In this document: in pieces, positions 16,707 to 24,980 of the stretch
How the letters are laid out: every line of letters starts with the position of its first letter
Position numbering within the stretch: position 1 is the stretch's first letter
Virus record (IMG/VR): IMGVR_UViG_3300007541_000201
Location: 1-24,980 of that record
Length of the DNA stretch: 24,980 nucleotides
From: a virus
Reading direction: 5' to 3' (one strand)
Notes under the pieces: generated by a model
Told to the model about the DNA's origin: nothing
The model's database searches: none
The model's input: the letters and a program-made list of their open reading frames with translations, nothing else
Program-made: the position numbers and the translations under genes

Positions 16707-17739
16707 CTTTTTCCACTCCTAAAATTCTCGCCATCATGATATCCATATTCTCAAGTCTGTCCGCCTCTCCAGCGATAGCTTCTTTCTGAATCTGGGCGAT
16801 ACGAATCATATTTTTTCTTTCCTTTTCGTCTTGAAACATCTGCACAACCGCGAGAATTGAAGCATTGTCCCTATGCTGTCTCTTCATTCTTTCGCCACGC
16901 TTGCCCTGAAGGGTGGTTGTCAAGCTCGCGATTCTATTCTCACACTTATGATATTCGTCGCTCTTCGTCTTGATTAGTTCGGACAGACGCATGGTCATGT
17001 CCGTTTGGTTTTCTATGCTTTCAAATTCCTTGTTTAGCTTTTCTAAATGCTTCGATATAATCTCCATATGAATGTATTCCTTGCACACATTCATATAGAG
17101 ATTAACTTCGTCTGCGGTCAAATCGGGCTTATCCCAAGTCAATCGAATGAATTCCTGCTCAAACAACTCCCTCTTTTTAATGTCTTCGTAGTTGTTGATG
17201 ATTGCCAAAAATCTGGAATTATTCAATCGAACCCCAAGCTTTTGGACGCAGGCTTCAATTTGTCGGGGCATCTTTTTATGGTCTATCTCTCCCCCCGTGG
17301 CCTGATTAATCTTCATTACGATTCTGCTAGGAGCATTAGGAGCGGAATATTCTGATATTGCGCCAGCTTTCGGGCCATCCAAATCAGGATTGATTGATTT
17401 AAGGTGAGCCATTACCGCCCGTTGCTCCATTCCCAACTTCTTAACCTCTCGGTCTGGGAACAAAACTCTGGCGATTTGATAGCTACTAACGCCCTGTTCC
17501 GCTTTTTCTTCCACCTCTTCTTTCTGCTCGTCCGAAAGACTGACAGGTTCAACCTTCTTGTGTTTTGTTGTCTTATATCGAAGGCCCTTTTCTAACAAAT
17601 AATCCCTGACGGCCTTTCCTTCCTTGCTAGAACCCTTCAGGGTTTCGTCACCGAAGACCTCCCTTGTTATTTTTATCAAATCGGGGTGCTTATGAAATGC
17701 GGCCTCAATTTCCCGCTTTTGTTCCATTGTCAGCTTCAT
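16693..17739 (-). CDS. Probable terminase small subunit (DNA-binding)
   Basis: 348 residues. The N-terminal 110 residues hold two helix-turn-helix-like segments (MEQKREIEAAFHKHPDLIKI and LSDEQKEEVEEKAEQGVSSY at about 69), the second followed by 'QIARVLFPD', a typical recognition-helix wording. The C-terminal half (about 200-330) is highly charged and likely coiled coil, suited to oligomer formation. It lies upstream of the nuclease and large terminase genes, overlapping one by 14 nt and sharing one base (TGATG) with the sigma-like gene. Terminase small subunits recognise phage DNA and start packaging; this assignment is by domain pattern and position and could instead be another DNA-binding regulator. 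Confidence 0.55.
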   Translation of the reverse strand: MKLTMEQKREIEAAFHKHPDLIKITREVFGDETLKGSSKEGKAVRDYLLEKGLRYKTTKHKKVEPVSLSDEQKEEVEEKAEQGVSSYQIARVLFPDREVKKLGMEQRAVMAHLKSINPDLDGPKAGAISEYSAPNAPSRIVMKINQATGGEIDHKKMPRQIEACVQKLGVRLNNSRFLAIINNYEDIKKRELFEQEFIRLTWDKPDLTADEVNLYMNVCKEYIHMEIISKHLEKLNKEFESIENQTDMTMRLSELIKTKSDEYHKCENRIASLTTTLQGKRGERMKRQHRDNASILAVVQMFQDEKERKNMIRIAQIQKEAIAGEADRLENMDIMMARILGVEKDDLI

Positions 17740-22070: not shown

Positions 22071-22084
22071 TTTTACTTGACTTA

Positions 22085-22096
22085 GTGTATATATAG
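22085..22096 (+). promoter_or_regulatory. Late-promoter-like motif driving the RNA unit
   Basis: GTGTATATATAG, nearly identical to the box at the phoH-like gene. It follows a TTGACT hexamer (22077-22082), but the spacing to any -10 is wrong for a host promoter made from that pair. Transcription would begin about 22099, just before the boxA. Confidence 0.5.
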
Positions 22097-22111
22097 AGTA
22101 GCGTAAGAATA

Positions 22112-22126
22112 GTTCTTTAACAATTT
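22112..22126 (+). promoter_or_regulatory. rRNA-type boxA antitermination element
   Basis: GTTCTTTAACAATTT agrees with the proteobacterial rRNA boxA (E. coli rrn leader TGCTCTTTAACAATTT) at all but one or two positions. In hosts, NusB and NusE bind it in nascent RNA and protect structured untranslated RNA from early termination. It sits two nt before the closing stem of the structured RNA. Confidence 0.75.
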
Positions 22127-22127
22127 A

Positions 22128-22308
22128 GCAGTGGGGGCCAGCTTCTTAAGCTGACATGGAAAAATAACCGTTATGTGATACATGATGGTTCAGAGATTCC
22201 GAAACACGCGCATGGCTAAGGAACCTTGCGGAGTACGAATCTGTCAGGCGTCTGGCCGAAATCAGACTTTGTCGGGACGAGATTCCCCGCCCCCACTGCG
22301 CTTTTTTT
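22128..22308 (+). ncRNA. Putative structured RNA ahead of the tmRNA, family not recognised
   Basis: GCAGTGGGGGC (22128-22138) pairs perfectly over 11 bp with GCCCCCACTGC (22289-22299), enclosing about 150 nt, and is followed by GC and seven T (22302-22308). Inside are a 6-bp hairpin (22139-22153), a hairpin of 11 bp with three G-U pairs and a 3-nt loop (22166-22190), a 6-bp helix AGATTC/GAATCT (22194-22199 with 22237-22242), and a 5-bp hairpin GTCTG/CAGAC (22250-22267). No convincing open reading frame or tRNA cloverleaf is present. It could be a stable RNA ended by a stem and T-run, or a processing leader of the tmRNA. The folding was done by eye. Confidence 0.6.
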
Positions 22309-22650
22309 GGGGATGTTATTGGAATTCGACCTTTGGCGGATTTCATTTGATGCATGTGGGAGTTAGTCGAAGGCTCCCTAAAAATCGACCAAACAATAGG
22401 TGAAGAACCTGTACTCCTTGCAGCTTAAACTATAAAGCTGCGCTGAACGCCGTGGATTCCGATAAGCGGTTAGTAGGCTCGACTATCGGATAGGATGGCG
22501 ATACCGAAATATCGCGCTAGGTTATCACTACCCAAGTGTTCGCGGTCTGCGTTACGCCCAAAGTGTGCTGGCACCAGAAAACCAGATAAACATGTAGAGT
22601 CAGTGAATGAACTCAAAGACACGAGGGTTCGAGTCCCTCCATCTCCACCA
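22309..22650 (+). ncRNA. ssrA: tmRNA (one-piece, phage-encoded)
   Basis: 342 nt. The 5' end GGGGATG pairs with CATCTCC near the 3' end in a 7-bp acceptor stem that has the G-U at the third pair, the alanine identity signal; discriminator A and CCA are encoded. The T arm GAGGG-TTCGAGT-CCCTC and the 5' block ATTGGAATTCGAC match the tRNA-like domain. TTAGTC at 22363-22368 marks the resume codon GAA (22369), after which the frame reads EGSLKIDQTIGEEPVLLAA and stops at TAA (22426-22428). A 7-bp hairpin GCAGCTT/AAGCTGC brackets the stop as in bacterial tmRNAs. It would rescue stalled ribosomes with host SmpB and tag the product for proteolysis. The long tag and non-Ala resume codon are unusual. Confidence 0.96.
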
Positions 22651-24934: not shown

Positions 24935-24964
24935 TTGACTTTTCCAAATTCTATGTAATTATAC
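24935..24964 (+). promoter_or_regulatory. Strong sigma70-type promoter at the window edge
   Basis: TTGACT (24935-24940), 18-nt spacer, TTATAC (24959-24964). It overlaps ATGTAATTATAC, which also resembles the late-motif family. Nothing lies between the glycosyltransferase stop and this promoter except an A/T-rich stretch. Confidence 0.6.
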
Positions 24965-24968
24965 GTCA

Positions 24969-24980
24969 TATAGTTCTTTA
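24969..24980 (+). promoter_or_regulatory. Start of a second boxA, cut by the window end
   Basis: TATAGTTCTTTA at the last bases of the window repeats AATAGTTCTTTA from the element ahead of the tmRNA (22109-22120). Its continuation is outside the window. Confidence 0.5.

Follow-up and report, generated by a model that had tools for sequence, protein, structure and literature searches.

The 181 nucleotides that separate a boxA motif from the tmRNA gene of a large uncultured phage hold an element of about 172 nucleotides (22128-22299), closed on itself by a perfect helix whose two arms exactly mark both borders of the gap. The element is non-coding and unclassified, and it is probably expressed. 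We lean, with slightly better than even confidence, towards reading it as a stand-alone gene for a structured RNA, added as a further cistron between the boxA and the tmRNA of a phage RNA operon; its product would be synthesized processively with the aid of Nus factors, released by RNase P, and put to use in trans.

The boxA-tmRNA region

The window, that is, the whole stretch of DNA that was analysed, is a linear virus record of 24,980 bp from IMG/VR. Among its phage genes are those for PhoH and for a sigma-like protein; its terminase shares about 22-34% identity, over partial length only, with those of the isolates in the phage collection. The boxA, the tmRNA gene, the promoter-like sites and the element between boxA and tmRNA are all on the + strand.

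The tmRNA gene (22309-22650) is called by two methods, ARAGORN and Rfam (RF00023, 83.1 bits). It is complete and standard (not permuted), with an encoded CCA and the tag EEPVLLAA. Genes for tmRNA are abundant in phages (L009-L128), where ARAGORN called 46 permuted and 37 standard ones, and several of them have very long tags, such as ADEEYRDLLAEAEQIFNNADAYVPEEALLAA.

The boxA, GTTCTTTAACAATTTA at 22112-22127, is of the rRNA-operon type and closely resembles the one in the rRNA leaders of gammaproteobacteria; in other phages, too, the motif stands ahead of tRNA arrays and tmRNAs. Upstream of it, the -35-like hexamer TTGACT (22077-22082) has a poor matching -10, and no site of this region passed a promoter consensus scan: by consensus, the promoter is weak. 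A similar TTGACTT, placed 34-37 nt before AGTTCTTTA, is seen again at 24935-24980, where a second promoter-like site and the start of a boxA (TTGACTT ... AGTTCTTTA) are cut by the end of the contig; another RNA operon may begin there.

Anatomy of the element

The closing helix pairs positions 22128-22138 (GCAGTGGGGGC), which abut the boxA directly, with positions 22289-22299 (GCCCCCACTGC). All 11 pairs are Watson-Crick, their pair probability is 1.0, and 150 nt are enclosed. Inside, hairpin P2 (22139-22153) consists of CAGCTT-CTT-AAGCTG and a flanking C-G pair (22139-22144/22148-22153, probability 0.67-1.0). Hairpin P3 (22158-22200) has a 4-bp base (22158-22161/22197-22200) and an 11-bp stem with two G-U pairs (22166-22176/22180-22190), with probabilities of 0.76-1.0. 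Hairpin P4 (22209-22230, paired as 22209-22215/22224-22230) reaches 0.91-0.96, and P5 (22237-22285, paired as 22237-22255/22262-22285) is interrupted, with most pairs at about 0.6-0.73 and a competing pairing. After the 3' arm come two nucleotides, GC, and a run of seven T (22302-22308) directly followed by the first base of the tmRNA; this run can be read as an RNase P leader or spacer, or as a U-tract.

An earlier examination of the letters, which we call the sequence-only reading, had described a GC-rich perfect 11-bp helix around 150 nt and seven T adjoining the tmRNA, and had both right, coordinates included. The further helices that it announced are also there, among them the 11-bp one with two G-U pairs, but whether these pairs are "compensating" cannot be called from one sequence.

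Stability of the fold

The 181-nt segment has a minimum free energy of -71.7 kcal/mol and a z-score of -4.5 (-4.7 on repeat), and none of 200 shuffles is as stable. The signal comes mostly from the closing helix: folded without it, the interior gives a mildly unusual z of -2.1. The reverse complement of the segment folds well too (z = -3.7), and 5 of the 396 other 181-nt windows reach -4.4 or lower, in noisy estimates based on 20 shuffles. Thermodynamics alone is suggestive, and not decisive, of a real RNA.

When this segment was shuffled 2000 times, 8 of the shuffles contained a perfect helix of at least 11 bp with a span of at least 60 nt. The whole window has two such helices, against 0.42 expected, and of these two only the closing helix is G+C-rich. 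What lifts the element above chance is the coincidence of both arms with the ends of the boxA-tmRNA gap.

The fold scan has its most stable 181-nt window (z = -6.6) elsewhere, at a near-perfect 18-bp hairpin (17058-17104, 94% complementary) within the coding sequence of a 348-aa protein.

Coding potential, families and homologues

Neither ARAGORN nor RF00005 finds a tRNA or a cloverleaf in the element, and its ORF list holds nothing convincing: ORFs of 69 and 73 aa run into the tmRNA, and the rest are trivial ones such as MEK*. The match to RF00023 (model 1-374) spans 22309-22650, so the element, which ends before it, lies outside the tmRNA. No family of Rfam 15, GOLLD and ROOL included, matches the element at gathering score, and at E<=10 there is one chance lncRNA match of 11.4 bits. 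That the element lacks a convincing ORF or cloverleaf had been claimed beforehand and is borne out; the family search adds that it matches no known family.

Homologues were sought in several ways. BLAST of the RNA against 50,697 phage and 72,556 plasmid records returned a 22-nt match to the boxA only; the exact pattern of boxA plus RNA and a combined pattern of tmRNA 5' and 3' ends had zero matches; a looser pattern, boxA-gap-TTTT-GGGGATGT, had 8, which were judged chance, none of them with a tRNA or tmRNA. Scans with the single proteins terL and PhoH gave 100%-identical fragments or nothing. An alignment search with terL led to 80 loci with relatives, and a search of genome contigs with a terL alignment to two relatives at 55-57% and a distant one at 24%, none closer. 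Besides a fragment of the same virus, the closest relative is L256, with 86% identity in terL and 74% DNA identity over 10 kb; its contig stops inside orf85, about 200 bp short of the position of the RNA. More distant terL relatives (55-67%) have no match.

A covariance model, R1, was built from the window sequence alone. Searches with it of the fetched phage loci (tRNA-array, tmRNA and the 80 terL-relative loci, about 2.9 Mb) and of 88 whole records yielded no homologue, and its best match outside the window, at 11.8 bits, is at chance level. The reach of a model made from one sequence does not extend beyond moderately close relatives, so this result means that there is no close homologue in the fetched sequences, and not that the RNA is unique.

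boxA ahead of RNA genes in other phages

A scan of viral contigs for a promoter followed by GTTCTTTAACAA yielded at least 81 non-redundant sites. Among those listed, a tRNA starts 18-35 nt downstream of the boxA at 11 sites, and 86-777 nt downstream at 17 more. Among the listed matches with enough flank, a tRNA lies within 700 nt downstream at 23 of 68, versus 9 of 68 upstream; when the boxA is extended to AATTT, 13 of the 20 matches listed have a downstream tRNA.

Most of the long boxA-tRNA intervals contain a perfect helix of 13-24 bp around some 75-220 nt, longer than in 40 of 40 shuffles, and this helix sometimes begins at the base after the boxA (L228 and L242). In most stem-closed RNAs of this class, the 3' arm is not followed by a run of T. 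At the same loci, the 18-23-bp closing stems CCATATTGAAGCACATT...AGTGTGTTTCAATATGG of 24 related modules show compensatory changes, for example G-C/A-T/C-G at one pair. The Rfam matches listed for 14 of these loci are to tRNA, GOLLD and group I intron. A boxA followed by a stem-closed RNA and tRNAs is thus a recurring layout in phages; unrelated phages whose tRNA arrays begin with it seem to have copied the rRNA-operon design for RNA production. We found no description of this layout for phage RNAs in the open-access literature.

Two groups of these RNAs can be described further. Arrays L182, L188, L191, L241, L153, L212, L237, L133, L203 and L242 carry a family of modules of 60-150 nt with 18-23-bp stems CCATATTGAARCACATT...AGTGTGTTTCAATATGG and compensatory changes; the interior of some modules resembles a tRNA, T-arm (GGTTCGATTCC) included. 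The leader RNAs that follow the boxA in L113/L170/L198, L148 and L175 share GGTTACCTA..CCGTTAGG ... GTAATGA and look like one RNA family, with no Rfam match among those listed. A GCGGAG core in L113 had looked like the window RNA, and was dropped as unsupported by the covariance model.

The coupling of boxA to tmRNA recurs as well. The motif TTCTTT(A/G)A stands 13-17 nt before the first base of 6 of the 67 non-redundant phage tmRNAs, against 0.36 expected, with no RNA inserted between the two. These six include terL relatives; L323, L342 and L343, all three terL relatives, have boxA, spacer and tmRNA with nothing inserted, as was read directly in L343. With boxA and tmRNA directly coupled in relatives, the window appears to carry an added RNA cistron between them.

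The sister phage L256 has T-rich spacers ahead of most of its RNA genes. It also has an apparent attenuator (1421-1280, - strand) ahead of a tRNA-Pro/Asn/Lys/Met/Arg cluster that is led by a boxA: upstream of this boxA lie a terminator hairpin and an antiterminator hairpin that competes with it, and a leader ORF, MIINNNKPNIRKPRNSWGLVAM*, begins just past the -10. Codons 4-15 of this leader are all decoded by the tRNAs of the cluster itself (for ATA, on condition that the CAT tRNA is Ile2); in the 5803 codons of the window's ORFs, no such run is longer than 5. The arrangement suggests that the expression of phage tRNAs may be controlled by tRNA supply, a type of attenuation for which our literature search found no paper. 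Between tRNA-Asn and tRNA-Lys of L256 (1036-1102, - strand) there is a small stem-closed RNA (AAAATCGGCAGG...CCTGTCGATTTTTT) with a run of T that abuts the tRNA.

Alternative explanations

The main rival to a stand-alone RNA is a cis-acting leader that controls the tmRNA in the manner of an attenuator or a riboswitch. The closing helix and the U7 would then together be an intrinsic terminator, its loop a folded stretch of 150 nt, and boxA, a ligand or a stalled polymerase would set the read-through. The G+C-rich 11-bp helix, the 2-nt gap and the U7 speak for it, as does the classical type of attenuator apparent in L256, by which this lineage may control its RNA operons through transcription attenuation. 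However, a loop of 150 nt is far beyond those of ordinary terminators, and the element is not among the matches of a terminator scan for loops of 3-8; nor does it have a leader ORF with a convincing ribosome site. The T run is mostly missing past the 3' arm in the stem-closed RNAs of the boxA class, and the one seen here is not special, because T-rich spacers precede most RNA genes throughout L256, which weakens it as the signature of a terminator. On balance we consider such a leader unlikely.

It is also conceivable that there is no functional RNA at all, and that the fold is a chance product of an intergenic insert in which an 11-bp inverted repeat happens to occur. Comparable helices do arise in the shuffles (8 of 2000), other windows have similar z-scores, and no homologue exists in the loci and records that were searched. 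Such an insert would not have to have its arms on both borders of the gap, as they are here, nor would many other phages be expected to show the same layout; moreover, phage genomes rarely keep 180 idle nucleotides inside an RNA operon. We regard a chance fold as quite improbable.

Least probable of all is a maturation domain, in which the closed stem would be a target of RNase III or RNase E that frees the 5' end of the tmRNA: the element does lie directly 5' of the tmRNA, behind a boxA and with a leader helix as in rrn operons, but the stem does not enclose the tmRNA, the enzyme known to make tmRNA 5' ends is RNase P, and related and unrelated phage tmRNAs with a boxA 13-17 nt upstream have no such domain, which counts against a necessary role of the element in tmRNA maturation.

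The sequence-only reading had left the choice between this processing domain, likened to rRNA leader stems, and a stable noncoding RNA produced along with the tmRNA. As a general requirement, the domain is disfavoured by the six boxA-led phage tmRNAs that lack it, and of the likeness to leader stems there remains the layout, a boxA with the 5' arm of the closing helix directly behind it. The stable RNA is the better-supported half: it is non-coding, unclassified, headed by a boxA, and laid out like those before many phage tRNA arrays, and it is presumably co-transcribed with the tmRNA.

A proposed stand-alone RNA and its possible synthesis

For the stand-alone RNA, we infer transcription, Nus recruitment, release by RNase P and a function in trans, along the following lines. 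Transcription would start near 22085-22110, and the nascent boxA (22112-22127) would recruit a host complex of the NusB/S10 type, as in rRNA operons, making the untranslated transcript processive. The 5' arm would be kept close to the polymerase while the rest of the element, up to and including the 3' arm, is transcribed, so that the RNA of about 172 nt can close on itself. A cut by RNase P before G1 of the tmRNA (22309) would then free the RNA upstream of it, which would end in a 3' oligo-U tail. The most likely role of this RNA would be to act in trans in the infected host, a guess suggested by GOLLD/ROOL and by RNAs C and D of phage T4.

Several observations weigh against this reading: the promoter is weak by consensus, the interior fold is only mildly unusual (z = -2.1), the closing helix of 11 bp is short next to the more than 17 bp reported as critical in E. 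coli pre-16S (PMC10250234), and the RNA is an orphan, with no homologues in the searched loci and records and hence no covariation to support its fold.

The pattern at the level of the class is of more interest than the single RNA. Phages might build mini rRNA-operon cassettes, made of a boxA, a closing helix around a private RNA, and tRNAs or a tmRNA. The rRNA-specific Nus/SuhB machinery of the host would thereby be hijacked for the synthesis and folding of a large repertoire of stable phage RNAs, most of them undescribed and the window RNA among them; we offer this tentatively, as a generalization with somewhat less than an even chance. If boxA is a general switch of phage RNA operons, a short searchable motif would give access to a large set of undescribed phage RNAs, and it would become directly testable what the host's Nus/SuhB factors do in phage infection. 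A boxA-coupled RNA beside a phage tmRNA also raises the question of whether it helps phage ribosome rescue.

Comparison with known systems

RNAs C and D of phage T4, two small stable RNAs with no known function, lie in a tRNA cluster and are transcribed along with the phage tRNAs. T4 is not known to have a tmRNA. A comparison limited to sequence, in the phage collection, found no similarity between these RNAs and the window RNA.

GOLLD and ROOL are structured non-coding RNAs of unknown function found near phage tRNA islands (PMC12286853). The likeness of GOLLD (RF02032) and ROOL, from phages and prophages, to the window RNA is that of a structured non-coding RNA near phage tRNA-type genes; they are conserved and hundreds of nucleotides long, whereas the window RNA has about 172 nt and matches neither. 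One locus, L203, holds both GOLLD and a boxA-led tRNA array. The window RNA is an orphan member of a loose kind, the structured RNAs of phage tRNA islands.

In rRNA operons, boxA-bound NusB/NusE and SuhB are reported to tether the leader to the polymerase and to aid the correct maturation of rRNA, rather than mainly preventing termination (PMC4807359). The leader-trailer helix is essential there, the spacing from boxA to the leader strand is conserved, and in E. coli pre-16S more than 17 bp of helix are reported to be critical (PMC10250234). The window shares with these leaders an untranslated operon in which a boxA, here GTTCTTTAACAATTTA at 22112, stands directly before the 5' strand of a helix that closes, at long range, on a structured RNA. 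It differs in that its helix has 11 bp, against the more than 17 bp of PMC10250234, that 150 nt are enclosed and not 16S or 23S rRNA, and that no boxB is shown.

A further parallel is found in the boxA-led phage tmRNAs L323, L342, L343, L037, L046, L089 and L098, which have TTCTTT(A/G)A just upstream: there, boxA and tmRNA follow each other without an RNA between them, whereas the window has an insert of 181 nt.
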